A stretch of DNA of 64,000 bases, taken from NCBI RefSeq assembly GCF_026210795.1, contig NC_089453.1, positions 622,501-686,500 on the forward strand, given 5' to 3'. The DNA comes from Rhizophagus irregularis (Eukaryota > Glomeromycota > Glomeromycetes > Glomerales > Glomeraceae). Positions 1 through 60,726 of this stretch are shown one piece after another (the stretch's first letter is position 1; every line of letters begins with the position of its first letter). The notes beneath the pieces were generated by a model. It was not told the origin of the DNA and did not search any database. It saw nothing but the letters and a program-made list of their open reading frames with translations. The translations under genes and the position numbers were made by a program.

Positions 1-720
1 AATTAATGGACTAATTATGAAAAATCATAAAAAATTAACAGTCATAATGAACTTGTTTTATTTTATTAATAATTTTATTCTAAATTCTCAATAAAGGATA
101 AAATAATTTTCAACTTTACACTTGAAAAGACGTCACGTCGTGCCGAATATTTAACTAAACATATTTGAATGTATATTAGTGGAATTATAACGAAATATTA
201 TAAACTGTCAAGAAATCGGGATGAAATAGATATAAAAATCCTAAACATTAACTCTCTCGACAGCATTAATCCTAAAATAATTCGTTATTGTAACATTTTC
301 CTTCATAATTCTCGAATATACTTGTTCGTTCGTAAAAATTCATCGGCAAAAGCCATTTTTATTTTTGAAATTTATATTATAAATTATATATTTTTTTAAA
401 TTGATAAGTAATTAGACGTCTATTTTACGATCGTTTGTTTAAATACATGTACACAGAAATATCGAGGTTTATAATTTGTATTATTTATAGTTTCAAGAAA
501 GGGAAAAGGTAGATATTCCCTTCTTTCCTCCCATTTAAAACTAGTAATTCTCTTCTGTTACCTCGCACTTATTATTAAAAATTGAATGAGAAATTAAATA
601 AAATCTTTATTTTTAATTCATAGTTATAAATATATTTAAAAAATCGCTAATATTTGTTGCTGACTTAGCCAAGTCCTTTAAAAAACTTGTTGTCACCTGA
701 TCACCACGTTGAGGTGCAGC
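1..720. other. AT-rich gene-free stretch
   Basis: Very AT-rich DNA left of the minisatellite. One open frame at 169-399 (76 codons) is rich in I, N, Y and F as expected of random AT-rich sequence, and shows no domain. No gene or RNA is supported. Confidence 0.6.
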
Positions 721-1500
721 AACATTGATCAGGGGGGAAACGAAAGGGAAGGGGGAAGGGATAACGAAAGGGAAAGGGGAAGAACGAAAGGGAAAGAGGA
801 GCACGAAAGGGAAAGGGGATAACGAAAGGGAAAGGGGAGTACGAAAGGGAAAGGGGAGTACGAAAGGGAAAAGGGATAACGAAAGGGAAAAGGGATAACG
901 AAAGGGAAAGGGGATAACGAAAGGGAAAGGGGATAACGAAAGGGAAAGGGGATAACGAAAGGGAAAGGGAGTACGAAAGGGAAAGGGGAGTACGAAAGGG
1001 AAAGGGGATAACGAAAGGGAAAGGGGATAACGAAAGGGAAAGTGGATACGAAAGGAAGAGGGAGAACGAAAGGGAAAGGGGAGTACGAAAGGGAAAGGGG
1101 AGTACGAAAGGGAAAGGGGAGTACGAAAGGAAGAGGGAGAACGAAAGGGAAAGGGGAGTACGAAAGGGAAAGGGGAGTACGAAAGGGAAAGGGGAGTACG
1201 AAAGGGAAAGGGGATAACGAAAGGGAAAGGGAATACGAAAGGGAAAGGGGATAACGAAAGGGAAAGGGGATAACGAAGGGAAAGGGGATAACGAAAGGGA
1301 AAGGGAGTACGAAAGGGAAAGGGGAGTACGAAAGGGAAAGGGGATAACGAAGGGAAAGGGGAGTACGAAAGGGAAAGGGGATAACGAAAGGGAAAGGGGA
1401 AAACGAAGGGAAAAGGGATAACGAAAGGGAAAGGGGATAACGAAAGGGAAAGAAGGGAAAGGGGATAACGAAAGGAAGGGGAAAACGAAGGAAACACAAC
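721..1500. repeat. G-rich purine minisatellite, 18-19 bp unit
   Basis: About 40 tandem copies of a purine unit of the form CGAAAGGGAAAGGGGATAA, with a second common variant ending GGGGAGTA. Each unit has a GGG-AAA-GGGG pair, so the plus strand offers runs of G triplets and quadruplets separated by short loops, and the whole tract is nearly pure purine. Variants of 17 and 18 bp are interspersed. Long open frames here (for example 613-1512 on the minus strand, reading SLSLSPFPF repeats) come from the absence of stop codons in the repeat and are not taken as genes. Confidence 0.95.
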
Positions 1501-3115
1501 CCACACTCCCACCTACATACCTAAAAGAAGATGTAAAAAAAGAACCGAAGAGAAGACCTAATAAAAGGAAGACCTAAAGAAAAGAGAAGTCCTATCGGGT
1601 GAAGAAACCAAAAGAGAAGGGAAGGAAGAGAAGACAGAGAGAAAGCAGACTTTTCGTTAAAATAAGGTATTGGGGACATACTGTATTTATATTATTTATG
1701 TTATATACTCACGACATTAAGATTACGTGTTGCAAGTCATGAGTAATTGTTTTTGCATGAGTAACCTAACCTTTATTCATATGATATGAGTAATATATTA
1801 TATCGAGTAATATAGATTTATATTTCGAACTCAGATCTAGTGATTTATCAAAAATACGTACTTTTTATTATAATTCTGTTAACTTTAACGTTCTCAAATG
1901 TCAGCGTCTTAACGACCGCTCAATTAAATAAAATATCCGATTTGCGAGGTTGTCATGTGATTTTTCGTATTGAATTACATACGTTTGATAGACAAGAAGG
2001 GAAGATGGGGAGCGATAAAAGTGATGCTTAAATATGACAATGCATTTCGTTTGGACAAAAAATTTGGAGGGTTAAATTAATTTACTATAGAATAACTAAA
2101 GCAAAATGTAATACAATATATTAAATTTTGCAACATATGAATGGTCTTTTTAATTTAGAAGACTTTAATATATTTACTATTATGTTATTAGTTTTATTAA
2201 TTTAAAAATGTTCTTTCTTTTATAATTGATTTTAATTTTTTTTTAATTTTTATAACAATAAAAAAAGATTTTTGTATAAGATTTAAAAAACCTATTAATA
2301 TTCTTATTTCTATAATTAGTCCGCTATAATAAATTTTTTTCGATGATATCACAAATGACTAGCCGTCAAATCATGTGCACGTAAAGTCGTAATGACTCAG
2401 CATGATCATATGGTAATAACAGATAACTCAACTAGTAATAATCATATTTGATTATGTCACGATTTTTTATATACAAAAACTAAAATAATATAAATGAATA
2501 AAAATAAAATTTTACCTTAAAAAAATATTTTGAAATGGTAAAATTAAATAGGAAAATAATGTTTTATTTATAATATTAGTCATGACTCGTAAGTTAATGA
2601 GTATATTATGTACAATACCGCGCGTGAAAAAAAAGGTATTTATTAGATAAGTATTTATTTGCGTCTGAAGGAGGAGTGAAAGAGATGGGTGTTATCCTGT
2701 AAGTAAAATTTTTTTTTTCTTACAATATTTCACTCTTTCCTACACTTTATAACAAGTTTTTTTTTACAATATTTCACTCCACAAATTCTCTACACGTTAT
2801 AACATAATAATTCTTTTTTTTTTGAAATCCCTCGTATTAATCCTTCTAATAACTATGCAACTAAGCATTACTCTCCCAGTCTCCCTCAATAATCAAGATT
2901 AGAAGACGAATGTGAAATGTTTGAATATATATTTCAAAATCATTTGTGGTAAGTTGACAAAAAAATTATTCTGCTGATGGTAGTTTTAACATTTTTCGTA
3001 TTAGATATCTAATAATCTTTTATATTATTTATTTTGCAACAGAGAGGCTAAGGTATTATTTTATCATTAAAATGTTGTGAGTGTTTGAAAGGTGGGCTTA
3101 GCATGTACTTGATAC
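1501..3115. other. Gene-free stretch with purine-rich flank
   Basis: The first 170 bases continue as irregular purine-rich DNA (AAGAGAAG-like runs) that looks like decayed minisatellite. The rest is AT-rich with T-runs near 2710 and 2815 and no convincing coding sequence. The 63-codon frame at 1840-2031 overlaps one arm of an inverted repeat and is not supported. Confidence 0.5.
1935..1974 (+). repeat. Left arm of 40-bp distant inverted pair
   Basis: Forty bases beginning ATCCGATTTGCGAGG match the reverse complement of 5500-5539 at 37 of 40 positions. Similarity appears to continue weakly outward. The arms enclose about 3.5 kb. No target-site duplication was found, so this may be two dispersed copies in opposite orientation rather than the ends of one element. 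Confidence 0.7.
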
Positions 3116-5150: not shown

Positions 5151-5326
5151 GACGATTCACTATAATAAGACGCATCAAATGGTGGTATTTTCATGGCTTT
5201 AGACTCGATACATAATGAGATATTCTCAATGTCAACTAAAAAAATACAAATAACCTTTCATATATTGAAGCTAGAGACATACCGTTCGATGCGTCTCATT
5301 AATATGAATCCAATGAGCTTTGGTTC
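5151..5326. repeat. Foldback carrying two diverged module copies
   Basis: Around 5165-5192 (reading AAGACGCATCAAATGGTGGT) and in the opposite sense at 5280-5320 (ACCGTTCGATGCGTCTCAT followed by GAATCCAATGAGCT) are two diverged copies of the palindromic module that is repeated many times in the 49-59 kb region. They face each other, giving an imperfect foldback. Ends and target duplication are not visible. Confidence 0.5.
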
Positions 5327-5499
5327 ATTCTTCTATGATTAATAGACGATGTAGTACCTCAGTATTTTTGTAGAAAAAATTAATTTTCCAATATAAAATA
5401 CGTATTGAAAACTCTTGATAGGATGGATAATTTTGAGGATTCAAAAAAAAAAAAATTCTGCAATAAAAATATTAAAAATTCGTGTAAAAACATTTCTTT

Positions 5500-20273: not shown

Positions 20274-20572
20274 AGAATACTGAATAATACTAATATAACT
20301 TACAAATAAACTTTAAATACTGAAGTAAAAATACATTTTATAACATAACTCTATTAATATTGAAACTAAAAATGCAATTTTACTATTATTAGAATTTTCT
20401 TATAGAGATGAATCCAATGATATAAATTTTATTAAAATCAAATTACTGATTGTATTAAAACAGAAGTATATAAGATAACAAAATTTTGAAAATACCCCTG
20501 TAATATGCAACTTTTGAAAAATTTTAATATACAAATTTAAATGTGAGTTGTATTAGTATTATTTGAGATCCT
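20274..20572 (+). mobile_element. AGGACCC-type MITE, AATAATACTAATATAA subfamily, copy 1
   Basis: A 299-bp element with ends AGAATACTGAATAATACTAA and (reverse complement) AGGATCTCAAATAATACTAA, flanked by an exact 8-bp duplication ATTAAAAG (20266-20273, 20573-20580). It contains the palindromic module (AGAGATGAATCCAATGATA near 20403). No coding capacity; hAT-type mobilisation is inferred. Confidence 0.9.
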
Positions 20573-23751: not shown

Positions 23752-26160
23752 TTATTCAGTTGCTAAATCCATAATATTTAATTTTAACCCAAATATCCTA
23801 TCATCATCATCATTATTGTTATTGTTACCAGTATTATTATTATTATTATTTATATCATTATCGTTATTATCATTACACTGATCATGTATTAATTTTCTTT
23901 TTAACCCCTTTTCGTATAACTGAAGATTTCCGTAAATATAAACTAACTTCTTAACACGTTCATTTTGCAATCGATTACGGATTTTATTATGAATAAACCC
24001 AAATGTAGAAAAATTTCTTTCAGTGGCAGCAAATGACATTGGAATTAAAAGAATCTTAATAGCTAGTTGTTGAAGGCTACTATTTGGCTAAGATTGCCAC
24101 CATATAGACGGATTAAGATTAGTAGATGATAACCAAATCATTTTATTATCATATGGCAAATTTTTTTGACGAAATTTTACTAATTCTGTAAATATAATCA
24201 CAGATTCCTTTTGACTGAACCTTTTACTTGTGAATTCTGTGAATTCTCTATATCTTATTGCCTCTATATCAGTATTTTTGCTTTCTTCTAAAAAACATGG
24301 ATCTAACATATAAGCAGCCATCATAATGGGATGGTATGTATAATCGTATAATCCCACCGTTTTTGAACAAATTGTTGAATATTGTTAGAAAAATTACAAG
24401 AGATTTCACTAACTCGATGCATTAATTTTTTGAAGTGAAAATAAACAGTTAAAAGAGTAAATGTGTCTGATTCAAACAATTTTAACACTATAACCATTTG
24501 CTCTAAAAATTTTATAATTGTGTCCAACATATCCCAAAAATTTTCCGATAATACAAATTTCTTACTGTATTATTTATTTTTTTACGGATATCAGGATCCA
24601 TTAATGTTTGTTCAAAAGCAGTTTTTGATTTTTGAAGTAACTGAAAACAGCTAAAATGTGCCTTATCGTGTAAGTACTGGTAAAACCAACGCAATCTTTT
24701 TATTATAATTTTCACTTTGAATACGTTTTAATTTTGCTGCTACTTGTATATGAGACTTAAAATAATTTACTATCATTTTAGAATTTTCAACTATGGTTTT
24801 AATTTCATCAATCTTTAAAACATCTCCAATTAAAAGATTAATAACATGAGAATTACACCTAAGACAAACAACATTGGAATATTTTTTCTCAATTCGTCTC
24901 CATGCTGATTTCATTACACTAGCTGTATCCGTAATAACAGCTGAAAATTTTTGAACACCAATAGCTTTCATTTGTTGAATAATTTTATTTGAAATCCATT
25001 CTCCTGTATGGAATTCTTCACCTGAAAATGTAGCATTAAAAAAAACTGGTTTAGGAGTACAAATAATAAAATTTTGTACTGATTCTCAATTAATATTAGA
25101 CCAACCATCAGAAACCATACAAAGAGTCTTTGCTTTGGAAATTTGTTCATCAGTTTAGAGCTCCGAACGAGTCGAGTCGAGTCAAGTTATATGTAAACTC
25201 GATTCGACTCGAGTTAAATCGAGTTGAGTCGAGTCGAGTTAAAATTATAAAAATATAAACTCGACTCGATTTGAGTCGAGTTGGCCCGTCAAACCGAATC
25301 GAATCGAGTCGAATTAAATCACGTGATTTTAATTCGCTATGCCGATCATTTCCTTTTTTTGGCGATAGCCATTCCACAAAATTCCATTTTTGTAATTTTC
25401 AAAAATTTTTCGTCCCGGATTTTGTGTAACATAATTTCCAAAAAGGAAATTCCATAAATTTGGCCGGAATTATGTTTAATTCGGCTTAACTTGACTCGAC
25501 TCGATTTTATTAAATTATTAACTCGACTCGAATCGATTCAATTTGATTGTAATTTTCAACTCGACTCGACTCGACTCGACCAACTCGCAAGTCAACTCGA
25601 CTCATTTCGGAGCACTACATCAGTTTGTAATTTTACTTTATCGTAAACATCATTTAATAAATCTCCAGCAAGTTTTCTCCTATTTGGCAACTTGAAGGAC
25701 GGCTAAAGACATTTAAAAAATTGAATGACAAGCAGATTATCAACAAAGGCAAATGGTACTCCAGCTGAAAATAATGCTTGTGCTAATTGAAATTCAAGAT
25801 CATCTTGTTCTTCTTCGCTCATACGATCAACAAAATTCTCAATTTTAGATGTTTTAGTTATTTTAATTCATTTTACAGGTATATTTGTATGAGTAGTATT
25901 TGGAGTAATAGGTGGAGTATGAATAGTGCTAGTTGTAAAACCTTGTGAATTGATGTTTTTTTTAGACTTTGCATTATCTGGTGCTACTAAATATTCTTTA
26001 TCAAGATGATTTTGCATTCGTGCAGGGACAGCTCTATTCAAAACTTTAGAATAATAATTACATTGTACAGTAGGATGGGAATTGTTTTTATTACTTTCTG
26101 TTTGGTTTTGCGTAATAATAGTCCAATGTTTCCAAACAGCACCTTTTTTTAGTTATTGTT
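23752..26160 (-). pseudogene. hAT transposase (DUF659 type), broken
   Basis: Reading on the minus strand from about 26150: an N-terminal BED-finger-like stretch (GAVWKHW ... VQCNYYSKVLNRAVPARMQNHL, one Cys of the usual pair missing), a DUF659 segment (KTLCMVSDGWSNIN, FSAVITDTASVMKSAWRRIE, CLRCNSHVINLLIGDVLK), a middle region (HPIMMAAYMLDPCFLEES) and a C-terminal hAT dimerisation region (AIKILLIPMSFAATERNFSTF, GFIHNKIRNRLQNERVKKLVYI). Several in-frame stops (for example after NTNIPVK and after DGWSNIN), frameshifts around 24350-24720 and the insertion 25156-25617 prevent a full product. The catalytic D of DGW is still visible. A D/N/G-rich tail follows the dimerisation region. When intact it would cut and paste elements with TAGGGATGG ends; it need not mobilise the AGGACCC elements. 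Confidence 0.9.
25156..25617. mobile_element. TAGAGCTCCG hAT-like MITE nested in the transposase
   Basis: A 462-bp element with ends TAGAGCTCCGAA and (reverse complement) TAGTGCTCCGAAA, flanked by an exact 8-bp duplication CATCAGTT (25148-25155, 25618-25625). Both subterminal regions consist of GAGTCGAGTCGAG / CTCGACTCGACTC arrays in opposite sense, giving long foldback arms. Removing it and one copy of the duplication joins the transposase frame. The 75-codon frame at 25150-25377 is a by-product of these arrays. Confidence 0.93.
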
Positions 26161-26426
26161 AAATTGAAAAATAAAAAAAAATTATTGAAAAAAAGATCAA
26201 TAAAAATCAGAAAATTGGTCACGTGACTATAATCACTTCTTTTAATTGGCTAATTTATAATTAACCAAATTAACCGTTAATTAACCCCATCCCTAGTTAT
26301 ATTATTATGATTTTTTTCTTTTTAGTTAATTAACCAATAGAATTTAAGAAAAAAGTAAGGTAAAAATCATTAGTAAAGAGCCAATTTTCTATGATGATCT
26401 TTATTATAATAAATAAGTGGGGTTCT

Positions 26427-27213
26427 TATAAAAATTAAAATATTTAAATATTTAAGTAAAAATAGAATAGTTAATATTAATTCTATTAATACAATCTTAC
26501 TACTATTTAATTTGCTTTAATTAGAGCTTTTGAATAAGCTATAAATTATTAGTAGATTCTGATTACTAAATGCTAAAATATCTTTAAAATACTTTTATAA
26601 TTAAATTTTTTTTTTTTAAAAAAAAAATTACCCAAAAAACTATATATATTTTATTTATATATTAGTAAGCCTTTTATTATTAAATTTTTTAATAATTTTA
26701 GAAATTATTTAATATTTAATTTAACTATTTTAACTTTTAAAACTTTTAGAAGGCTAAAATCAAATTAATTTTGATTATTTTAACCATTTTTAAAAGTCAA
26801 AATTATTCTAATTTCAATTTTATATATAATCCTAATCAGTACTAGTATAAATTTAATTTAAAAGATATAATAATATTATATGGCTAATATATAAAGGTTT
26901 AATTCAAATGCATTTATAATATTTTATTATGTAATATTACTATAAAAGTATATTATAATATTTAATTGCAGGTTTAATTAAAATCTGAATAATACTAAAA
27001 AAACTAAAAATTTTGCTATTTAAAAATTAGTAATTGGATTTTAATAATCTTAAACTTATTAAATGTATTTTACTAAAATAAACATTTTAATATTTATTTA
27101 TTTTTTTTTTTCTTACAACATATTTTGATATAGAGATTGAATCTGTATAAAAAAATCTTTATTCAGATTATCTAGCAGATAAACCTGTAGGTCATCCAAG
27201 TGAAAGCTAAGTT
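26427..27213. other. AT-rich gene-free stretch
   Basis: Contains partial sequence related to the AATAATACTAATATAA MITE interior (about 26460-26540). The last 60 bases (ACCTGTAGGTCATCCAAG...) resemble sequence just right of the next element and at 29350-29490, suggesting that element inserted into an older repeat. Confidence 0.5.
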
Positions 27214-27221
27214 AATCCAAC

Positions 27222-28271
27222 AGGACCCCGAACAATATATATAAAGGTAGGTTTTGAGTTTGCTTAGCCAACATATAAAAATTTTTCCTATGTAAGATTT
27301 ATTATTGCTTATTTGATAACATAATTTTTAAATAGTCAGATATAATTATACATAGCAGAGTATTAAATTATTAATAGTCAGATATATATTTGCGTAGCAG
27401 GATAGAATTTTTAATATGTATATATAATATAATATATATTTACATTTTTCACATTAAAAAAATCTAATAAAATATGTAAACAAAGTTATAAATATGTTTG
27501 TATAAAAAAAATTTACTATTTTAATACAAAGAATAAGTTAATTGTATACGTAATACAGGAAACATTTTTAGATGTGATCGTGTAACATGTTTTTGATAAA
27601 TCATATACGCGTCTGTATAACATTTAAAAAATATATATTAAAAATGAGAGCAAGAAAAATAAGTGTTTTTCTGTTTTTTTATAATTTTACACTATAATTT
27701 TTGTAATAATCAATAAAAGTTATTTCATTTTTACTTAGAAAATTTTTTAAAAATATTTTTTTTGACAAATTTTACAGTAAATTTTAAAAATAAAAATTCC
27801 GCGTATTGGTGGCATTACAAAAAACATGAATAAATCCATAATTATCTATTCAATCATGATAAAAATTTATATGTGAGTAGATTCGAACCTATTGAACAAC
27901 TTTACTTAAGAAGGTTTTGGATTTTTCCTTTGACTAAAGTGCCTAAATTACGCTATGAAGTCACAGAACAGATATACGAAATATTAATAAGAAACATTTA
28001 TAAGTTGTAATATTACAAAAAAATAATAATAGCTTTTATTTATCCATACATTATTTCAAAAATTTTTGTTTTTTTAGTTTTTTTTATATACATATTTTAT
28101 AAAAAAAATTATATATAAATATATATATGTCATAAAATAAGTTGCTTAGCAGTGTAAAAAATTTATGGGTTAGATAAAAGTTTGCTTAGCAGACATGAAA
28201 AATATTTGCTTATTGACCTTAGTAAATTTTGAATTTTTTAACTGACTTATATATATATTGTTTGGGGTCCT
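27222..28271 (+). mobile_element. AGGACCC-type 1.05-kb element, copy 1
   Basis: A 1050-bp element beginning AGGACCCCGAACAATATATA and ending with the near-perfect inverse, flanked by an exact 8-bp duplication AATCCAAC (27214-27221, 28272-28279). Subterminal words GTTTGCTTAGC / GCTTAGCAG recur in opposite sense at both ends. No frame longer than chance. An inverted copy lies at 59685-60726. Confidence 0.93.
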
Positions 28272-38207: not shown

Positions 38208-39032
38208 TTATTGATTATTAAATGAAAAAATGTTATTATAAAGATATAACAATTGATTCTGTTCGGTTTGCTGTTGTTGTTGTTGATGATGGTAATTATT
38301 TGGAATAATTTGACCATTAATTTCTGTATACGAATTATAATCTATATTATTGGGCTGATGGTTCAAATTATTTAATGAAATATACCCGTTATTTGGTATT
38401 TCGAAATTAAAAGTATTATTATATGGAGTTGATGGATATAATGTAGAGGTGAGAGGAAGAGGAAGTGATGGAGGTGGTAAGCTAGTTGATACTGACGTGG
38501 ATCCTGATCCTACAGTTCCCACGGGTATTAGGGGTCCTATAGGTACTATCGGTCCTATTGATGTTTCTATCTGGGGAGATGTGGGTGGAGGGGCAGACGT
38601 TGCTGTTGATAATTGTATCGGAAATGAATAATAGGGTTTATAAGATGCTCTCTCCTTTAATGATGATACTGTCATTTTTTTATATATTGATGACGTTCTT
38701 TTATAATGAATCTCATAAACCCGATCTGCTAATTTTTTATATACATCCTTTTCTTCTGCAGAGGCGTTCTTCCATAATATGCCCGTGACTTTACTTATAA
38801 CGCGCATATTAAAAGTGCCTTTTCGAGTAGCCTCTTCATGTACATTTCTTCTGCAGACAAGAAACGCGTTTGGACTTCTTTTTGGTCGACGGAATGACAA
38901 ATTTGTTAAATTGTCTGTGGGTGAAAGAAAGGATTCGGGATTGTTAAGCATTGGTGGGAAAATGTTATTCCTATCCAATCTAACAATCAATGACATAGCA
39001 AGATCTTCAATTGAAAAGTTATGGGTAGTCAT
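38208..39032 (-). CDS. MATA-HMG-like HMG-box protein 2
   Basis: A single-exon frame of 274 residues. The N-terminus (TTHNFSIEDLAMSL...RNNIFPPMLNNPESF) matches HMG gene 1. The HMG box spans about residues 48-112 (FRRPKRSPNAFLVCRRNVHE, then VISKVTGILWKNAS and YKKLADRVYEIHYKR). Compared with gene 1 it has about 100 extra C-terminal residues: a P/S/T-rich segment (about 140-210) and an N/Q-rich tail with a HHQQQQQQQ run near residue 250, features of activation or interaction regions. It probably acts as a nuclear DNA-binding regulator; targets and any mating-type role are unknown. It lies about 30 kb from gene 1 in the opposite orientation. A 15-18 bp minisatellite starts within 50 bp upstream of its ATG and may lie in its promoter or 5' UTR. 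Confidence 0.94.
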   Translation of the reverse strand: MTTHNFSIEDLAMSLIVRLDRNNIFPPMLNNPESFLSPTDNLTNLSFRRPKRSPNAFLVCRRNVHEEATRKGTFNMRVISKVTGILWKNASAEEKDVYKKLADRVYEIHYKRTSSIYKKMTVSSLKERASYKPYYSFPIQLSTATSAPPPTSPQIETSIGPIVPIGPLIPVGTVGSGSTSVSTSLPPPSLPLPLTSTLYPSTPYNNTFNFEIPNNGYISLNNLNHQPNNIDYNSYTEINGQIIPNNYHHQQQQQQTEQNQLLYLYNNIFSFNNQ

Positions 39033-48823: not shown

Positions 48824-49346
48824 TTCATCAGAAAATTTGTTTAGGCGTAATTTAGTATAATACTTCAGAGGTGGTGTAAAATTTTGAAATATTACACTAA
48901 AAACATAATATTACAAAAGTTTACGTTCTTAAATTTAGATAATTATAGTAATTTAAGAATATCTCACTATCTACTAATCCAATCAAGATGATCTATAGCT
49001 CATTGGAATCAGCTCATCAAGACAAATCGAATGGTGTTAAAATCGCAGTTTTACATTTGATAGATGGCTTTCTATTAATTTAAAACTTTATTGTATACTA
49101 TAGAGCATTCTATCAACTGTAGAAATGCAAATTTACCACCATTCGATTTGTCTTGATGAGCTGATTCCAATGAGTTATAGATCGTTTTGATTGGATCAGT
49201 AAATAGCGAGATATTCTTAAATTACTATAATTATTCAAATTTAAGAGCGTAAACTTTTGTAATATTACATTTTTAGTGTAATATTTCAAAATTTTACACC
49301 ACCTCCAAAATATTATACTAAATTACGCCTAAACAAATTTCCTGAT
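48824..49346. mobile_element. AAATTTGTTTAGGCG long foldback element
   Basis: Two arms of more than 200 bp: CATCAG-AAATTTGTTTAGGC at 48827 and its inverse ending at about 49346. They pair through TAATTTAGTATAATA, GTGGTGTAAAATTTTGAAAT and further. Each arm carries a palindromic-module copy (49009-49042 and 49139-49173). The loop between is about 100 bp. Flanking duplication not found. Confidence 0.85.
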
Positions 49347-49470
49347 GTAATAACTAATCATCAAAAGAATCTCTTACAGTAAGATTATATTGATAATTAC
49401 TATTATCAAAAGATATTTTTAAAGGTAACGAATATCTGTAAAATTACCATTTAAAGTTAAAAATAGCTTA

Positions 49471-49749
49471 CACTGGTAAAAAAATGATTTATCCTACACA
49501 TATCTTACACATATTGGGTACTTAAAATGTAGAAAATCATACACAAATAATACACATATCATACACATATCGGGTACTAATATATATATCATACATATAT
49601 CAGGTACCTGATAGGTATACTATATATATAAGTACCCGATATGTGTATGATATGTGTATTATTTGTGTATGATTTTCTACATTTTGAGTACCCGATATAT
49701 GTAAGATATGTGTAGGATATGTGTAGGATAGACCATTTTTTTACCAGTG
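49471..49749. mobile_element. CACTGGTAAAAAAATG foldback element
   Basis: A 279-bp near-perfect foldback with ends CACTGGTAAAAAAATG / CATTTTTTTACCAGTG and a TTA target duplication (49468-49470, 49750-49752). The arms are internally repetitive (TACACATATC, GGGTAC). The 3-bp duplication is unlike the neighbouring 8-bp families and suits PIF/Harbinger- or CACTA-type transposition; assignment is uncertain. Confidence 0.9.
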
Positions 49750-49763
49750 TTAACAGGTAATAC

Positions 49764-50863
49764 AGGATCCCGGATTATACATGAAACCAAAATTGGTTAA
49801 TTTTGACCTCCAAAATGGTCAAAATGGTCGAAATGATTTCGACTTGAGCCCCTCCAAAAGTCGAAATGGTCGAAATTACATCATAGTCATATGATTTTAT
49901 AGTAAACAATAATATTAAAATTCAAAGTTAACGATCTCCGCATCCAGTGATTCAATTTTTATGATCTTTACACGGTTGGATTCAGCTCATCGAGAGGATT
50001 CCAATGATATGTATTTCATATTTGTAGCATCAATATTGACGGAGTTATTCACATTTAAAATTTGGTATTAAATAGTTTTATAATTTTTATAGTAAACAAT
50101 AATATTAAAATTTAAAGTTAACGATCTCTGCATCCAGTGATTCAATTTTATGATCTTTACACGGTTAGATTCAGCTCATCAAGAGGATTCCAATGATATG
50201 TATTTCATATTTGTAGCATCAATATTGACGGAGTTATTTACATTTAAAATTTGGTATTAAATAGTCTTATAATTTTTATAGTAAACAATAATATTAAAAT
50301 TCAAAGTTAACGAACTCCGAATCCAGTGATTCAATTTTATGATCTTTACACGGTTGGATTCAGCTCATCGAGAGGATTCCAATGATATGTATTTCATACC
50401 TGTAGCATCAATATTGACGGAGTTATTCACATTTAAAATTTTATATTAAATTATAATTATAAAAATCACATGACTATGATGTAATTTCGACCATTTCGAC
50501 TTTAATTTTGACTTTTGACCTTCCCAAGTCGAAATATTTCTACTTTTGGGCTTTAATTTTGACTTCATGTATATCCCGGATATCTCTTATAGAACTTACA
50601 ACTGACTTTTTGCCAAAGAAAACCCAATTTGCTTTTTTTTTATTTTCCGTATTTTGCAATTATCTTGGTATCCAGTAATCCAATTCATGCGGATTTAATT
50701 TTATTTTGTAGAGCTCGATGAGAACTACAAAACAAAAAAAAGTTCGTACAAATTGAACTACTGGATGCTGAAATAATCGCAAAAAACTGATTTTTTTTTG
50801 TGAAATTTAGGTCAATCTGTAAAAAAGTTGCCACTGAGTTGTATATGTAATGTCTGGGGTCCT
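49764..50863. mobile_element. AGGACCC-type element interrupted by a TATACATGAA element
   Basis: Outer ends AGGATCCCGGA and (reverse complement) AGGACCCCAGACATTACATA, flanked by an exact 8-bp duplication GGTAATAC (49756-49763, 50864-50871). The inner element 49776-50573 sits close to the left end. Without it the outer element is about 290 bp, a foldback around TAGAGCTCGATGAGAACTAC. Plus and minus frames at 50685-51058 are not genes. Confidence 0.9.
49776..50573 (+). mobile_element. TATACATGAA-family element, copy 1
   Basis: A 798-bp element with ends TATACATGAA / TTCATGTATA and an exact 8-bp duplication TCCCGGAT (49768-49775, 50574-50581). Subterminal arms pair (GTCGAAATGGTCGAAATTAC with its inverse near 50485). 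The core is three tandem units of about 188 bp, starting near 49902, 50091 and 50279. Each has one palindromic-module copy (ATTCAGCTCATCGAGAGGAT) and ATCAATATTGACGGAGTTAT. No coding capacity. Confidence 0.93.
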
Positions 50864-50871
50864 GGTAATAC

Positions 50872-52182
50872 AAATAGTAATATAAATGATACAAAAGGTA
50901 GCTCAAAAGGTTCTAAAGGTAATGGCAAAAAGTTTATATTAAAAGGTTTAGAATATAGTAAAAGGTTTATATTGGCAAAATTATCATTAAAAAATTCAGA
51001 ATATGTTAAAATAAAGCATTTGTACTTGTCTTATAATTATTATTATTATAATAATTAGAACAAAAAGCATTAAATTCTATATTGTTATTAAAAAAATTAA
51101 TTATTTAAAGTTATTAAAGAAAAATTTTCTTTAAAAAAATAACAAAATAAAAAAGTGGCATTTTTGTATATTTAAAGAAAACCATTTAAAAAATTTATAA
51201 AAATCAAGGTAAAAATTCACTTGTGGTGAATTTTACCATAAAATTATTAATTTATGCATAATGTAAATTATAGTAAAATTCATTCTGATGAATTTTACTG
51301 AAAATGAATGTAAAATTAATCTTTTATTTAATTCAAATAATCTAATTTTAAACTTTTTTTTTAATGTAATAAATTCTAATAAATTAAACTAATTTTAACT
51401 TTTTCTTTTAATAATAAATTCAAATAAATTAACTTTAATAATAAAAAATAGAATACTTGAGTATAAATAAATAATATAATATATTATTTGTCCAAAGTTT
51501 AAAATCTAAAAAAATCTTAAAATTTAATTTTAAATAATATTAAAATATAATGCAAGCCAATTATTATTTATTGAAATTTTAAACTTATTAGAATTTTAGA
51601 TTTCAGGATTTTTAAATCTTCTAAAATTATTATATAAAATTATGCAATATATTACATATTTTTGCAAATATTAGAAAAAAGTTACTTTAATTAAGATTAA
51701 AAGATACAAATTTTATCTTTATACTTATAATAATAAGAAAACTTATTTTGAATTAAATGAAAATAAAAATTAGAAAGTATAATATCATTATAAAGTTCTG
51801 AATAATACTAATATAATTCACATTTGAGTTTACTTAGAATTTAAATTAAAATTTTTTAAAAGTTGCATATTATAAAAATATTTTTAAAATTTTGTTATCT
51901 CACATATCTCCAAGGTAAACTTGTTAAATTTTATATTGAACAATAAAAAATTTTTTTTTTGTGGCTTATTTATATTTAATGTTATTAATTGATGAATTAT
52001 CATTACATTTAAATATGATCTTGTAAGATAAAATCAGAATCAAAATATGCCAATTAATGTAATTCATATAAAATTTATATTAGATCTACAAATTAATTTT
52101 ATACTATTGAGTAATAATAATTTTGTAATCTTTTAAAATCTTATATATATTTATAGATGAACTAATCAAAAGAATTAAATTA
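50872..52182. other. AT-rich gene-free stretch
   Basis: Contains a left-end fragment of the AATAATACTAATATAA subfamily at about 51792-51910 (TTCTGAATAATACTAATATA then TTCACATTTGAG). No gene. Confidence 0.5.
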
Positions 52183-53142
52183 CAGTCAACTCTCTTTATA
52201 GTCACACATTTGGGACAAGTCCATATTTGGTGATTATAAAGAGATGTGACTATATAAAAAATTTCTTATATTAGTATATCATAATTCCGGCCAAAAATTA
52301 ACATAATTTTAGCCAAAATTATACTCAAAACTTTATTGTATCATAACTCTACCAATATTAATCGTAGAGAGATGATCTTACCGCCATTCGATTCGTCTTG
52401 ATGAGACGGTTCTAATGGTATAAAATACATAGAAATCCAATCACTAAATTAATTTCCGAAATTAAAAAAATATTAATGGCTTTTGTGTAATAACTCTGCC
52501 AATATTGATCCTAGAGAGACAATCTTACTACCATTCGATTCGTCTTAATGCGGCGAATCTAATGGTATAAAATACAATGAAATCCAATCACTAGATCAAT
52601 TTCCGAAATTAAAAATATTAAATGGTTTTTAAGTAGTAACTCCGTCAATATTGATCACAGAGAGATGAGCTTACCACCATTCGATTCGTCTTTATGAGGC
52701 GATTCCAACGAGCTATTAATCGTCTTTTTACAATCACTAGGTACCGAGAAATTTAGCAAAATGTTAAATGGCGCAGTAAACGTAAATCAAGAATATAATA
52801 ATGCCGATGCTTAACATTTTGTTGAATAACTCATCAGCCAGTGATCGCAAAAGGATAAAACTACCACCATTCGATTCATCTCAGTGAGACGATTCTAACA
52901 AGCTATGATACATCTTTGTACGATTATTAGATGCCAAGTTATTTAATATATTCTTTATATAACTGTGATTATAAACGGTTCTTTTTAATATAAGATTTTT
53001 GAGGATAGGTGTGATAGTGACTATAGATAGATTGTGACTATATAGGATAGTTTTTAATAATAAAGTGTTTTGAATATTCAACTGGTGTGACTATATAGTA
53101 GAATGTGACTATAACGGGAGTGACTATAGAGGGAGTTGACTG
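52183..53142. mobile_element. CAGTCAACTC pogo-like element with module tandem repeats
   Basis: A 960-bp element with ends CAGTCAACTCTCTTTATAGT and (reverse complement) CAGTCAACTCCCTCTATAGT, flanked by TA on both sides (52181-52182, 53143-53144). These features are typical of Tc1/mariner-pogo elements. The interior from 52376 to 52910 has four units of 130-190 bp, each with ACCATTCGATTCGTCTTRATGAG-like sequence (the palindromic module); three also have AACTCYGTCAATATTGAT. No transposase. Confidence 0.92.
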
Positions 53143-53979
53143 TATTTGAAAGTGATAATGATGGTAAATATCTTTACTTTATGACTTTCTTTGTTTTGTA
53201 AATTTTATATTATATAAAATTATGCTTTTATTAGATTACCTGACAAAAGAACTTGAATTGGATCAATTCAATCTCATATTTTTTTTAATATTTGAAACCA
53301 GCAATTAATTATATTATAAATTATTTGATTTTATTAAATATAATATAAAATTTTAATTATTTTTTTTTCCTTTTGATAATTATATTATAAGTGTTATTTT
53401 TTTAATAAAATTATATAATTTATATTATTATATAAAATAATAAAAAATTCTAAATAATACTAATATAATTTACAAATAAATTTTAAATATTAAAGTAAAA
53501 ATATATTTATAATATAACTTTATCAATATTGAAGTTAGATATAATTTTACTATTATTAAAATCCTTTTATTAAGATAAATCCAATGATATAAATTTATTA
53601 AAATTAAATTACTGGTTGTGTTAAAATAGAAGAAGTCACTATTTCATCTTATATATATTTTAGTTAGTTAAGATTTTTTATATATGAATTTTGCAAATTT
53701 ACAATTTATAAGGTTTTTTTTTACACTATTTAAAAATATATATTATTTTTTTTTCAAATTTTTTATTTTTTTTTAGTTTTTTTTTAGCATATTTTGATCC
53801 TACTGGTTTTAAAAATATGCTTAGGTAATGTAATACATTAATACCTTTTTTTAGCAAATTTTTAAAGTATTTATATTATTGTAATGTATTTTTAAAATAA
53901 TGCAAACATCATTTCAGAGCAATAGTATTTAATATATAAAAATCTGTTGAAATTAATTATAGATTGCTAATTATTTTGT
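53143..53979. other. AT-rich stretch with a truncated MITE
   Basis: At 53447-53630 is a truncated AATAATACTAATATAA-subfamily copy (left end, module and AAATTACTGGTTGTGTTAAAA present, right end missing). Otherwise AT-rich with T-runs near 53740-53790; no gene. Confidence 0.6.
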
Positions 53980-54288
53980 AGGACTCTGAATAATACTAAT
54001 ATAATTTACAAGTAAACTTTAAGTATTAAAGTAAAAATACATTTTATGATATAACTCCATCAATATTAAAGCTAAAAATGCAATTTTATTATTATTAAAA
54101 TCCTCTTATTGAGACGAATCTAATGATATAAATTTTATTAAAATCAAATAACTGGTTATATTAAAAATAGGGGTATGTAGGATAATAAAATTTTTAAAAT
54201 ATTACTGTAATATATAACTTTTGAAAAATTTTAATATAAACTCTACGCAAACTTAAATGTAAGTTATATCAGTATTATTCAGAGTTCT
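53980..54288 (+). mobile_element. AGGACCC-type MITE, AATAATACTAATATAA subfamily, copy 2
   Basis: A 309-bp element with ends AGGACTCTGAATAATACTAA and (reverse complement) AGAACTCTGAATAATACTGA; flanks TATTTTGT / CATTTTGT are an 8-bp duplication with one change. Contains ATAACTCCATCAATATTAA and the module (CTCTTATTGAGACGAATCTA). Confidence 0.9.
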
Positions 54289-54296
54289 CATTTTGT

Positions 54297-55769
54297 AATT
54301 GAACTTTATTACTATTTTTAATTTAATGTAACTTCCCTAATTTTTATACATTATCACAGAAATTAGTTTTCAGTTTTTATGTTATTATCATATAATGATT
54401 AATATTAGTTAAACCAATAAAATTTAACAAAATTATATTCATATTTTTTTTATTTTTTTCAGTATTTTAGCTGTTATATAAAATGACAAAAAAAAAAATA
54501 TAAAATTAAAATATATTTTAGTTATCAAAAATACCTTTATTATAGAATAAATCTAACAAAATAAACCTGTAAACATAAAAAAAACTGTTAAACCAATTAA
54601 AAAAAATTGAACAGCTCATATTAAAAATGCGTTTCCAAAAGTTTTTAATTCTAATAACTCTTTTGATTTTAAACAATTAGATTTTATTAAAAATAAGAAC
54701 GAATATTTTCAATATACAGTAAATATAATTTAACAGAAACTATTCAATTATCATTTTGTTTAATATGTAATAGTTTTTATTAGTGTTTGATTTCCAAAAA
54801 CACTAAACAGATAAGAAATAAAAATTCTTTTATAAAAATAATTAAAACTACTATTATATTAAATTTTACATTTAAATATAATAGTTTTAATAAAAGTGAA
54901 CATATCCGCTGATTTGCGAAATTTGCCGATCATCAGTTATGTGGTGCAGTACCAATTAAAATTGATCAAACCCCATTCCTACGTAAGAAAAAATGTTAAA
55001 AAATATATAAAAAAAACTTTTAAGATCTCTTCCAAAATATTTACCTCTTTAAACTGAAACTAATAGAAGGAGTTTCTAGAAAAAAAAAGGAAAAAAATAT
55101 TATAAAGTTAGTTTATTAAAAAAAAAAGAAAAAAAACTTTACAAATCCAGAATATTTAATAATTTAACGAAAAAAAATTAACTGAAAAATAATTAATAAT
55201 AAATATCAAATAGATTTTAATTAAACAGCTAATCAATACATAATCTAAATTTGCTAAAACATTGTTATTAATATTTAGAGTTATTTATTTATTGAAAGAT
55301 TTTTTTTGAATAATTTTGCTTTCTAAATAAATTTTTTCTATAAACTATATAAAAAAAAATAAAAAAACAGCTCCAAGTTGTATCTAATATAAAATAATTA
55401 CTAATATACTTGCAAAAATTCTCAACTTACTTGATATAAAAACTGGTTGAAAAGTTGATGGTGGAGTTGATGGGGAGTTTAATAGGGAGTTTACAAAAGA
55501 AAAAAATTTTTTAACGCTACTTTTTGTTGAAGTAATTTCTTAATATCTGTCATATGATCATGTAGCACAAGTGTAATCATTTTTGCAAAACTTAATTTAC
55601 CTAATTTTTATTAAATTATTGTCAAATTCCTTAATTTAGATGAATTTTGTTAATTTCGCAAATTGGAGAATATGAAATGAAAATAATATTAAATTAGAAA
55701 TCAAATATAAACTCATAATTAAAAAGTAGATGATACTTCACTTTCTGCTAAAAATCAATCAATTATAAT
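54297..55769. other. AT-rich gene-free stretch
   Basis: No gene. Short GC-richer patch at 54900-54985 (CCGCTGATTTGCGAAATTTG) without coding pattern. Confidence 0.5.
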
Positions 55770-56174
55770 AGGACCCCGAACAATACTGATATAACTCACA
55801 TTTGAGAATATATTATTATACTCTGGAAGGAATGATCATCCTAAGAAGAACCTATCATATATGTCACAACACCCTGAGTGGATAACAACTCACATTTGAG
55901 TTTGTGTAGAGTTTATATTAAAATTTTTCAAAAGTTGCGTATTATATAAGGATATTTTTAAAATTTCATTATCCTACATACCCCTGTTTTTAATATAACC
56001 AGTAATTTGATTTTAATAAAATTTGTATCATTGGATTCGTCTCGATGAGAGGATTCTAATGATAGTAAAACCGAATTCCTAGCTTCAATATTGACAGAGT
56101 TATGTCATAAAATGTATTTTTACTTTAGTACTTAAAGTTTACTTGTAAGTTATATTAGTATTATTTGGAATTCT
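55770..56174 (-). mobile_element. AGGACCC-type MITE, AATAATACTAATATAA subfamily, copy 3
   Basis: Ends AGGACCCCGAACAATACTGA and (reverse complement) AGAATTCCAAATAATACTAA; flanks ATTATAAT / GTTATAAT are an 8-bp duplication with one change. Opposite orientation to copies 1 and 2, with a well-kept module (GGATTCGTCTCGATGAGAGG). A 94-bp insertion at 55807-55900 lengthens it to 405 bp. Confidence 0.9.
55807..55900. mobile_element. 94-bp insertion with 14-bp duplication
   Basis: Inserted in the MITE just after AACTCACATTTGAG (55793-55806), which is repeated at 55887-55900. The inserted sequence (TCTGGAAGGAATGATCATCC...) is GC-richer and not found elsewhere in the window. A 14-bp duplication suits target-primed retrotransposition or a repair event; there is no A-tail. 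Confidence 0.7.
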
Positions 56175-56182
56175 GTTATAAT

Positions 56183-56682
56183 AATCTTTAAATTAGATAA
56201 ATTCTTACTTCATTGCAAATTAATATATTATATTACTTTTTGAAAATAAAAAGATTCATACTAATTGTCTGAAGCATAAGCATAAGACATTTATATTCTA
56301 CTCTAAATTATGCATGTGTTATCTGTTCATACATATGTATGACCAATAAAATCTTAGAATTAGGTATAACCTTAGATTTGTTTATATATATAATACATAT
56401 CCTTCTGATTTAAAATATCTTTAAAAATTTTTATGCTATTTAATAAGACCTAGATATATATATATAACTTTAATATATGTATTAAAATTGCAAAAATAAA
56501 TACCTTTTTATGTAATTTTACAATAAGCTAATTATTTTTATAAAGTTGAAATTGAAATACATTTTTCAGTTCATATTTGCATTTTTTCAATATATTCATC
56601 AAATAAAAATCAACATACTTACAAATAATTTCTTGCAATATTTAATAAATAATAATATAATAAATTATTAATATATATTTTT
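56183..56682. other. AT-rich gene-free stretch
   Basis: Nothing recognised beyond simple AT sequence. Confidence 0.5.
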
Positions 56683-57579
56683 GTCTGGAGCGAAGCAAAG
56701 AACTATATATGTTTATGAATCTTAATGACATATTGGATCACGTGGTGATGTCTGTTTATCTGCACGCGTCATTTCTGATTGGTCCGCACAGATTGTGTCA
56801 TTGAAATTTCATACTACTTCAAAAATAAACAAGTGTAATAATCATAATAAGTTTATGATAAACATGATTACCTGATAATCTCTTTTTTTATTTGGTTTCG
56901 TCTAGTGAGTATATTGTTTTTTAATTGACTTCAAAGGAATGTTTTTGATTTATTTCTTATTCTTTTTCTAGGGTTTCTGGATTTCTTGTACATACTGGAC
57001 TTTAAAGGTAAATTAGGAAGTAGAGGGTTTTTTATTTGTTTAGCTTTAAAGAAACGTTTCTAACGTTTCATTTCTTACTTTTTTCCTAGGGTTTCTGGAT
57101 TTCTTGTATATACTGGACTGGTAAGTTGTTTTTTTATTTGTTTTGCTTTAAAGAAACATTTCTAACATTTCACTTATTATTATTTCTAGGGACACGGGAT
57201 TTTTGTACACGCCAGATTTTTAAAGGTAAATTGGCTTTTCTTATTTGTTTGACTTTAAAGAAATGTTTTTAACGTTTCATTTCTTACTTTTATCCTAGGG
57301 TTTCTGGATTTCTTGACTGGTAAATTGTTTTTTATTTGTTTTACTTTAAAGAAACGTTTTTAACGTTTCATTTTTATTTTTTTATCTAGGAATGCGGGTT
57401 TTTTATATATGGCAGATTTTTAAAGATAAATTGTGAAGAGGGGCTTTTCTTATTTGTTTAACTTTAAAGAAACATTTCTAACGTTTTATTTTTTATTTTT
57501 TTTAGGGACGCCAGATTTTTTGTACAAATTAAATTTTTAAAGATATTTGGATTTTTGTACAAAATCTTTTGCTCCAGAC
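56683..57579 (+). repeat. GTCTGGAGC element with exon-like tandem units
   Basis: Inverted ends GTCTGGAGCGAAGCAAAGA and (reverse complement) GTCTGGAGCAAAAGATTTT bracket about 900 bp. Inside, from 56930 to 57545, are six units of 90-120 bp. Each unit has a T-rich tract and a TAG, a short GC-richer block of 21-37 nt (for example GGTTTCTGGATTTCTTG...), then GGTAAATT or GGTAAGTT, then TTTATTTG and CTTTAAAGAAACGTTTCTAACG. The blocks look like micro-exons at 56972-57007, 57090-57120, 57190-57225, 57299-57319, 57390-57425 and from 57506, with 69-82 nt introns; the fifth has lost the GT donor. No start codon or protein family is recognised, so this may be a mobile minisatellite instead of a gene. Confidence 0.6.
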
Positions 57580-58728
57580 TTACAACGATTTCCGTTTCCT
57601 AGTATATTATAATAAACAAAATTCTTAAATGATTTACATTTATATTATTTTTATTAAAAACTTTTTTTATTCTAGTATACATTACTATAGATTTACAATA
57701 CAATCCATTTTGTATATATATAAATAACTTTTTAACTAATATTTTTTCAATACAAAGTAAGTTTAACAATTTGTTTTTTCATATATTTATCATTAAATAG
57801 AAGTGTTATATACCATTTGAGATTATTAACTATATTTTTAGATATTAAAAAAGTATTTCTATTTGCAAAAAAAAGAAAATTTAGAAAATGTCAAAAAAAG
57901 AAAATAATACATAACTTGAAAACTAACTTTATTTAGTTAATATAGTACCTAAAATTTGGTAAATATAAAGTTTATGATAAAAAATTTATGAAATTGTAAG
58001 AAATTACAAGAAACTAAACAAATTGAAGAAATTTTATTAAAATAGTTCATAAAAAAATAGAGAAAATCAGAGAAATCAATCCCAATTTATATATTATTAT
58101 ATAATTTCACAATCAGAAGGTTATATTAAATTATATATACATATATATATATATATAAATACAACTAGTACTGTACATATAATTACAAAAATATATTCAT
58201 CATGAATAATTAAATGGCATAAGTTTATTACTATCTAAAGATATTAAGTATTATTATAAGTGGTTTCAATATTAATTTTTTTACTAGATTTTATATAGTA
58301 AAACTTAAATTATATCTGATTATATTTTTATTTGTGACAATTTTTTCTTAAAAATAATGATAAATTAAATTTGAACTAATTTAATTAAATTAAAATATAA
58401 CTTATATATATTTTTTCTGAAATTTGTTACTAATTAATAGTTAGAATTTTAAATTCAATTAATAAAATTAAAAAAAAAAACTATAATTTTATTTATTTAT
58501 TTTTTTTTGCTACAGCACAACTAGATTTTTATTAAGATAATAAAAACATTTGTAAATATAATATATATATAATAAATAAACTATTCTAATATTATTAAAA
58601 TTTAAACCACCTGTTAACTACATTCAAGAAACCATGTTTACACTATTAGTAATGGATTTAAGCTAAGGAAATAAACAACTTTTGTAAGATCATTTTCTTA
58701 AAAAGAAGTCTTTCTTTTCAGTCTATAT
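57580..58728. other. AT-rich gene-free stretch
   Basis: Simple AT-rich DNA with an (AT)n run at 58130-58160. No gene. Confidence 0.5.
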
Positions 58729-59488
58729 TATATATGAAGTCAAAATTAAAGCCCAAAAGTAGAAATATTTCGACTTGGGAAGGTCAAAAGTCGAAATTAA
58801 AGTTGAAATGGTCGAAATTACATCATAGTCATGTAATTTTTATAATTATAATTTAATATAAAATTTTAAACATGAATGACTCTGTCAATATTGATGCTAC
58901 AGATATGAAATACATATTAATGGAATCCTCTCGATAAGCTGAATCCAACTGCATAAAGATCATAAAATCGAATTACTGGATGCGGAGTTCGTTAACTTTG
59001 AATTTTAAAATTATTGTTTACTATAAAAATTATAAGACTATTTAATACCAAATTTTAAACGTGAATAATTCCATCAATATTAATGCAAATATGAAATACA
59101 TATCATTAGAATCCTCTCAATGAGCTGAATCCAACCGCATAAAGATTATAAAAATCGAATCACTGGATGCAGAGTTCGTTAACTTTGAATTTTAAAATTA
59201 TTGTTTACTATAAAAATTATAAGACTATTTAATACCAAATTTTAAACGTAAACATATCATTGGAATCCTTTCGATGAGCTGAATCCAACCGTGTAAAGAT
59301 CATAAAAATTGAATCACTGGATGCGGAGTTCGTTAACTTTGAATTTTAATATTATTGTTTACTATAAAATCATATGATTATAACGTAATATCAACCATTT
59401 CAACTTTTGGAGGGGCTCAAGTCGAAATCATTTCGATCATTTTGACCATTTCAGAGGTCAAAATTAACCAATTTTGGTTTCATGTATA
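58729..59488 (-). mobile_element. TATACATGAA-family element, copy 2
   Basis: A 760-bp inverted relative of 49776-50573 with ends TATATATGAA / TTCATGTATA and an exact 8-bp duplication GTCTATAT (58721-58728, 59489-59496). It also holds three tandem core units, the last shortened, each with a module copy (58918, 59103, 59260). Confidence 0.93.
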
Positions 59489-59684: not shown

Positions 59685-60726
59685 AGGACCCCGAACAATA
59701 TATATATAGGTCAGATAAAAAATTCAAAATTTACTAAAGTCAATAAGCAAATATTTTTCATGTCTGCTAAGCAAACTTTTATCTAATCCATAAATTTTTT
59801 ACACTGCTAAGCAATTTATTTTATGACATATATATATTTATATATAATTTTTTTTATAAAATATGTATATAAAAAAAACTAAAAAAACACATATTTTTGA
59901 AATAATAATGTATGGATAAAGCTATTATTATTTTTTTGTAATATTATAACTTATAAATGTTTTTTATTAATATTTCGTATATCTGTTCTGTGACTTCAGA
60001 GCATAATTTAGGCACTTTAGTCAAAGGAAACATCCAAAACCTTCTTAAATAAGTAAAGTTGTTCAGCAGGTTCGAATCTACTTACATATAAATTTTTATC
60101 ATGATTGAATAGATATTTATGGATTTATTCATGTTTTTTGTAACGCCACCAATACGCAGAATTTTTATTTTTAAAATTTACTGTAAAATTTGTCAAAAAA
60201 AATATTTTTAAAAAATTTTCTAAGTAAAAATGAAATAACTTTTATTGATTATTACAAAAATTATAGTGTAAAATTATAAAAAAACAGAAAAACACTTATT
60301 TTTTTTGCTTTCATTTTTAATATATATTTTTTAAATGTTACACGGACACATTATCAAAAACACCGTTACATGATCACATCTAAAAATGATTCCTGTATTA
60401 TGTGTACAATTAATTTATTCTTTATATTAAAAATAGTAAATTTTTTTTATACTGTACAAACATGTTTATAACTTTGTTTACATATTTTATTAGATTTTTG
60501 TAATGTGAAAAATGTAAATATATATTATATTATATATATATATTAAAAAATTCTATCCTACTACGCAAATATATATCTGACTATTAATAATTTAATACTC
60601 TGCTACGCATAATTATATCTGACTATTTTTATCAAATAAGCAATAATAAATCTCACATAGGAAAAATTTTTATATGTTGGTTAAGCAAACTCAAAACCTA
60701 CCTTTATATATATTGTTCAGGGTCCT
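59685..60726 (-). mobile_element. AGGACCC-type 1.05-kb element, copy 2
   Basis: A 1042-bp inverted copy of 27222-28271, closely similar end to end; flanks ATCAATTT / ATTAATTT are an 8-bp duplication with one change. No coding capacity. Confidence 0.93.

Follow-up and report, generated by a model that had tools for sequence, protein, structure and literature searches.

A module of approximately 112 bp recurs inside small transposons of the plant-symbiotic soil fungus Rhizophagus irregularis whose ends and target-site duplications differ from one family to another. It was examined in a stretch of 64,000 nt (contig NC_089453.1, positions 622,501-686,500 of the forward strand), hereafter called the window, and was then sought in the genome (146.7 Mb, 32 contigs). 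On balance we favor the reading that the module acts in cis as a discrete accessory unit of non-autonomous terminal inverted repeat (TIR) transposons of several end classes, and that it is kept through predicted protein binding. We infer this function from the sequence. The occurrence of so precisely built a 112-base piece in unrelated transposon families suggests a possible common signal from which all of them benefit.

Anatomy and edges of the module

The module consists of an inverted core and two unlike flanking arms. The core has the form ATTCGTCTC-3 bp-GAGACGAAT, and in an alignment of 44 diverse copies (seven partial, interrupted or odd ones were dropped before scoring) it reads GATTCGTCTC-3 bases-GAGACGAATC. 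The left arm resembles AACTCCGTCAATATTGATGCTAGA and the right arm resembles CATCAAAATCCGATCACTAGAT. These arm types are distinct, in that an arm is mostly closest to arms on the same side of the core in other families, with some exchanges. A preliminary description of the window had called the module palindromic. This fits the core, but the whole unit, with its arms of different types, is no short palindrome. A second motif that had been noted, TCAATATTGA beside AACTCYGT, is indeed present and is better described as the left arm of the unit.

To place the limits of the module, a single copy per element context (11 contexts) was aligned on the core without gaps. Information averaged over ten columns is 0.44-1.16 bits per column from -60 to +49, 0.21 bits at +50 to +59, and 0.12-0.23 bits further out, while 11 random rows yield a mean of 0.15 bits and a 95% point of 0.22 for ten-column means. 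The unit therefore has edges, because information falls to background outside it. Likewise, ungapped identity between contexts averages 62% inside the unit versus 31-32% in the flanks (55 pairs, with one flank pair reaching 64%). This alignment, together with the presence of the module in carriers flanked by TA, TTAA, and 8-bp duplications, bears out the original proposal that families with different ends share one internal unit. Conserved columns show no significant ten-base periodicity (permutation 0.39).

Module copies in the window

A profile built from module copies detects 18 copies in the window at an expectation value (E) below 1e-3. Approximately 19 had been claimed; all 18 of the positions originally listed are module copies, and the total is 18. 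The range 49002-59290, to which the recurrence had been assigned, is overlapped by 15 of them. The 14-base core as first written has no exact match in the window, where the best copies carry one mismatch. When up to two mismatches are allowed, the core word matches 12 times, with some copies counted on both strands, and shuffled sequence averages 0.35 matches. Copies and carriers in the window are the following, with strand and profile E given where assigned.

5155..5348, unstranded: inverted module pair (5155-5222, minus; 5250-5348, plus), found by profile
20275..20571, plus: AGGACC-type element with one module (20345-20452) and duplication ATTAAAAG (8 bp, by eye)
48826..49347, unstranded: AAATTTG foldback element of 522 bp, with 261-bp arms 88% alike; the same element is at L019:9295-9817
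48963..49066, minus: module copy in the foldback, E 8.6e-21
49110..49210, plus: inverted partner in the foldback, E 2.1e-19
49776..50573, unstranded: first TATACATGAA element, 8-bp duplication TCCCGGAT, three tandem modules approximately 189 bp apart
49936..50048, minus: module copy in the first TATACATGAA element, E 3.1e-26
50126..50237, minus: module copy in the same element, E 3.8e-24
50315..50426, minus: module copy in the same element, E 8e-25
50662..50771, plus: marginal, strongly diverged module-like palindrome, uncounted, E 0.1; inverted repeat 50646-50790
52183..53142, plus: pogo-like element with CAGTCAACTC ends and TA flanks, three modules 147 bp apart and one inverted
52343..52449, plus: pogo-like element, module copy 1, E 5e-26
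52490..52596, plus: pogo-like element, module copy 2, E 4.6e-24
52637..52748, plus: pogo-like element, module copy 3, E 6e-27
52830..52942, minus: pogo-like element, module copy 4, inverted, E 1.1e-20
53514..53618, plus: module copy in a truncated AGGACC-type relic (relic read by eye), E 1.8e-9
53981..54287, plus: AGGACC-type element with one module, duplication ATTTTGTA 2 bases past the matched right end
54051..54157, plus: module copy in the preceding element, E 9.3e-16
55771..56173, minus: AGGACC-type element with one module, duplication TTATAATA 2 bases past the matched right end
55997..56103, minus: module copy in the preceding element, E 4e-22
58729..59488, plus: second TATACATGAA element, 8-bp duplication GTCTATAT, three modules
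58879..58987, plus: module copy in the second TATACATGAA element, E 6e-21
59065..59174, plus: module copy in the same element, E 6.4e-19
59254..59328, plus: module copy in the same element, matching profile positions 39-113 alone, E 1.5e-15

Several details of the preliminary description were confirmed, namely the 8-bp duplications of the TATACATGAA elements and the TA flanks of the pogo-like element; the AGGACC elements also carry 8-bp duplications. The copies reported near 5165 and 5290 are both modules, and inverted-repeat detection found no terminal repeats for this pair. The copy near 53562 is the one in the relic that we read by eye as truncated AGGACC. Some paired ends proved spurious and were excluded (e.g., 24513-26644 and 56593-59488). 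Between two module carriers, at 49470-49750, sits a 281-bp palindrome without the module, whose arms are 85% alike and which has ACACTGGTAAAAAAAT ends and internal TACACATATC-like repeats.

Carriers belong to several end classes

Both ends are defined for nine kinds of carrier element, seven of which are flanked by TA, TTAA, or 8-bp duplications. Duplications of 8 bp are found in four kinds, the TATACATGAA, TATACTTGTG, TATACATGCTG (L040, GTGCATTC; L numbers denote gathered loci), and AGGACC elements, and in the TATACTTGTG family the duplication is perfect in six of the seven fetched copies with both ends. TA is duplicated by the elements with CAGTCAACTC ends, which we take to be pogo-like from their ends and TA flanks, and by the L048 element. 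TTAA flanks a single copy, in L049. The remaining two kinds, the AAATTTG foldback and the element with CAGGTCG ends (L042), show ambiguous duplications, and two further contexts are less certain, one with degenerate ends read by eye (L015) and one whose ends are not established (L007). Because the three TATAC-type families may form one superfamily, only three end classes can safely be counted as independent, namely TA (Tc1-type in the case of L048) and two with 8-bp duplications, TATAC and AGGACC.

Four of the nine end types also occur without the module, and the module is therefore accessory. One case is the TA-flanked Tc1-type transposon at L028:6525-7843, whose transposase frame runs uninterrupted for 342 residues and matches DDE_3 and HTH_Tnp_Tc3_2. 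This element lacks the module, and its end is 80% alike to that of the module carrier in L048 over 102 positions. Both elements have the TA duplication of the Tc1/mariner type, and the Tc1-type transposase was identified in L028, to which L048 is joined by its similar ends. All five fetched AGGACC elements with near-consensus ends lack the module and have 8-bp duplications that are clear by eye. The module is also missing from the window elements at 27223-28270 and 59686-60725, from a 177-bp TATACATGCTG element (L020 8486-8662), from a 198-bp TA-flanked element with ends related to the pogo-like ones (L040 176-373), and from many other inverted-repeat candidates in a random sample of the genome.

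The CAGTCAACTC ends number 933 within two mismatches. Among 100 listed exact ends and 49 listed DDE_1 matches (C1-C9), one DDE_1 match lies less than 8 kb inward, at 7.5 kb. A candidate autonomous module carrier in L044 was rejected because its DDE_1 relic adjoins the module element and lies outside its ends.

Other sequences are found in or near the modules. A 967-bp insertion (L004:1544-2510) within a module arm is flanked by the 19-bp direct repeat CTATAAATCGTCTTTTTAC, and its far end resembles a tRNA-derived retroelement by eye; in L003 and L019, module arms are broken by like junctions. Near the modules of families with different ends (window 52183-53142, L031, and L033) there is also a second short motif resembling TTCCGGCCA-AAATTA, with GGCCAGAATTAGCC in L031, which may be another shared piece.

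Copy number in the genome

The exact core is present genome-wide as 502 words (247 + 255), and a 22-base core with up to three mismatches gives 4,435 strand matches (2203 + 2232), while neither pattern has any match when reversed. One copy may count on both strands because the core is nearly symmetric. The profile at E<0.01 yields 134 merged matches in 354 kb of gathered loci, against none on the reversed sequence. In a random sample of 20 regions of 10 kb (200 kb), three regions contain modules, 14 copies in total. These counts point to a genome-wide copy number on the order of ten thousand, with a wide error because copies cluster and most of the sampled regions lie in the first 1.6 Mb of their contigs. 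Thirteen of these 14 copies sit in elements whose ends were seen (one L019 end by eye), and the other is in a degenerate terminal-repeat element in L015, read by eye. A search of viral contigs with a 21-base core gave no match, and literature searches limited to open PMC papers returned no report of the module in titles or the beginnings of abstracts.

Spacing between core and arms is locked

Among the evidence for constraint, we give most weight to the phase of the arms. When arms from 24 hand-chosen copies were scored against a profile that excluded their own family, 47 of 48 were best at shift 0, and the sole out-of-phase arm (L033) was shifted by one base. A count of 132 usable copies (two of the 134 were dropped) places 229 of 243 scorable arms in phase and 14 out of phase, with a further 21 arms scoring too low. 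Families differ from the consensus by a mean of approximately 0.54 substitutions per site, and decaying pogo-like and TATACTTGTG copies have accumulated 26 indels per 276 substitutions, or one per 11. In a simple neutral simulation, 29% of arms keep their phase after 0.54 substitutions per site, and after 0.2 the share is 60%. The spacing is locked despite this rate of indels, which argues for selection on a phased protein-DNA site. A host-factor target had been among the functions first suggested; the fixed core-to-arm spacing fits such a putative target.

Within a family, modules and spacers decay alike (3.6% versus 3.3% in 14 pogo-like copies; 2.0% versus 2.4% in seven TATACTTGTG copies). 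Once inserted, individual copies therefore seem to evolve neutrally, and the constraint would be exerted on source lineages. Module CpG sites decay 3-4 times faster than other sites, and core CpGs are nonetheless kept in the consensus. This faster decay fits the CpG methylation reported at transposons of R. irregularis (PMC8647823).

A mechanism consistent with these observations can be proposed. The module may have entered different families by recombination or by gap-repair exchange of interiors. One or more putative DNA-binding proteins, supplied by the host or encoded in trans by transposons, would bind the core dyad and both arms as a phased complex. The symmetric core would suit a dimer, and the two unlike arms at a fixed distance would complete a double-stranded site. 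Such a complex would aid the spread of its carrier whichever transposase cuts the ends. Because carriers are moved by different transposases, chromatin access, end synapsis, and replication timing are the candidate steps. We offer only tentatively the bolder proposal that the module might be a superfamily-independent transposon enhancer, a phased, predicted protein site that would promote the spread of every DNA transposon with a copy of it and would evolve as a selfish entity by hopping between transposon interiors.

Several points weigh against a protein-bound unit under selection. The neutral simulation treats arms as independent, but families that exchange interiors are not. In two families with a shared interior, modules are 75.7% identical versus 60.0% for spacers, a modest difference (Fisher P 0.011), and other shared interior stretches of the same two families are equally similar (72-79%). 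Gapped pairwise alignments of contexts introduce 153 gaps in 55 pairs and leave four pairs gap-free; we think that these gaps are artefacts of aligning at such divergence, because ungapped identity is 62% over the whole unit, and this indel count was set aside as unreliable. When all 25 copies picked by hand for an information profile are used, flank values are 0.08-0.20 and most bins lie above 0.11, the 95% point for random rows, as copies belonging to one family would be expected to cause. The 11 contexts are not fully independent, since three have ends of the TATAC type and families probably exchange sequence. Finally, AGGACC elements do well without the module.

Arrays, exchange, and alternative explanations

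The number of modules per element varies widely. AGGACC elements have one, foldbacks and L042 an inverted pair, pogo-like elements three direct copies and an inverted one, L040 six in alternating orientation, and L058 seven direct copies and an inverted one. The L058 array (G000:C1:3931500-3933100) lies in a pogo-like element and has 147-bp direct units, four neighbors of which have the same score; it is possibly a nascent satellite. The arrays, with one to seven direct units, look like satellite-style expansions inside transposons. No long tandem array was present in the loci examined, and no genome-wide survey for such arrays was made. The pogo-like and TATACTTGTG families differ in ends and duplications, yet approximately 460 bp of their interiors, comprising three modules and spacers, align at 70%, and cassettes have therefore been exchanged. 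Arms are also mosaic: the left arm of TATACTTGTG unit 3 is closest to TATACATGAA, and that of unit 2 is closest to pogo-like unit 1. The early suggestion of a mobile satellite thus fits in part.

These same features are what would be expected if the module were a passive passenger, a satellite-like unit that spreads by interior recombination (gap repair, template switching, array expansion) and has no function for carrier or host. Exchange that extends beyond the module alone, near-equal neighboring units, mosaic arms, and copies that decay as if neutral all agree with this explanation. We remain doubtful of it since core-arm spacing is locked across families at about 0.5 substitutions per site and the edges fall at the same place over 11 contexts.

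The edges also bear on a fossil origin, in which the module would once have been an independent miniature transposon, with TAACTC...GAGTTA ends and a TA duplication, and would have landed inside other elements. Conservation does start at TA, and the edges read TAACTC and, more weakly, GAG-TA on the right. However, this origin seems unlikely, as the 14 random-sample copies (200 kb) include no solitary one with its own duplication and no empty site was seen.

Action at the RNA level, in which a transcribed hairpin serves, for example, as a small-RNA source or structural RNA, is a considerably weaker contender. Small RNAs and methylation at transposons have been published for R. irregularis (PMC8647823), and one of six copies folds with a z of -5.5 and four with z of -1.6 to -2.9, but the sixth (z +0.5) shows no advantage over shuffled sequence. 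Within copies the arms are 49.9% complementary, versus 51.2% when right arms are re-dealt, and there is thus no covariation or compensatory pairing. Because the arms do not covary and folding is variable, a conserved RNA hairpin is unlikely; Rfam at gathering thresholds gave no match in six sources.

Chance in AT-rich sequence and simple nesting of one family in others, both named beforehand as outcomes that would undo the idea of a shared module, can be dismissed almost outright: reversed controls gave no matches and shuffles far fewer than the window, and although insertions beside or inside carriers occur (a pogo-type end abuts a module element in L033), similarity stops at module edges and not at the ends of another family.

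Relation to known systems

Short interspersed elements (SINEs) possess central domains known as CORE, V, Deu, and others. Otherwise unrelated SINE families share such a domain, a short stretch of interior whose origin and function are unknown (PMC7983390). The module in R. irregularis is similarly a short internal piece common to otherwise unrelated elements, one piece in families with unrelated ends. In contrast, its carriers are not SINEs but have TIRs and TA, TTAA, or 8-bp duplications. Whereas SINE domains reside in retrotransposons, the module resides in TIR elements of several end classes, is built from an inverted core and two phased arms, and often forms short arrays.

Non-autonomous Helentrons (Cg_HINE in oysters, Pearl; DINE-1) contain satellite-like central repeats, and the likeness lies in short arrays of 140-180 bp units in non-autonomous elements and in modules joined to different flanks (PMC7492417; PMC5139131). 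Helentrons are one superfamily without target duplications, and array orientation is fixed in every element. The module, in contrast, crosses TA, TTAA, and 8-bp classes, with such duplications in seven of nine end types, and has direct and inverted copies within one element. In the model of Scalvenzi and Pollet for Xenopus, tandem repeats are carried by transposons (as cited in PMC7492417). Short tandem-unit arrays in mobile elements are common to both cases; as far as the model is represented in that citation, the difference is that here one module is found in elements with many kinds of ends. From the parts of these sources consulted, neither the SINE nor the Helentron precedent extends to one unit found in TIR families whose duplications are of different kinds (TA, TTAA, and 8 bp).

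Two-thirds of the transposable elements of R. irregularis are said to be unclassified (PMC11075540), and the module offers a handle on the largely unclassified elements of this symbiont. Present in thousands of copies whose phased architecture can be aligned, it would be a DNA-transposon counterpart to SINE domains. Such a counterpart would make it testable whether a shared internal signal helps elements whatever enzyme moves them.

Other features of the window

Two further features lie elsewhere in the window. One, at 613-1512 (minus strand), is a long open frame of low complexity with a high content of proline, phenylalanine, serine, and leucine. A MATA-HMG gene occupies 38208-39032 (minus strand), and its protein is 97% identical to R. 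irregularis MATA-HMG and 85% identical to that of R. clarus.

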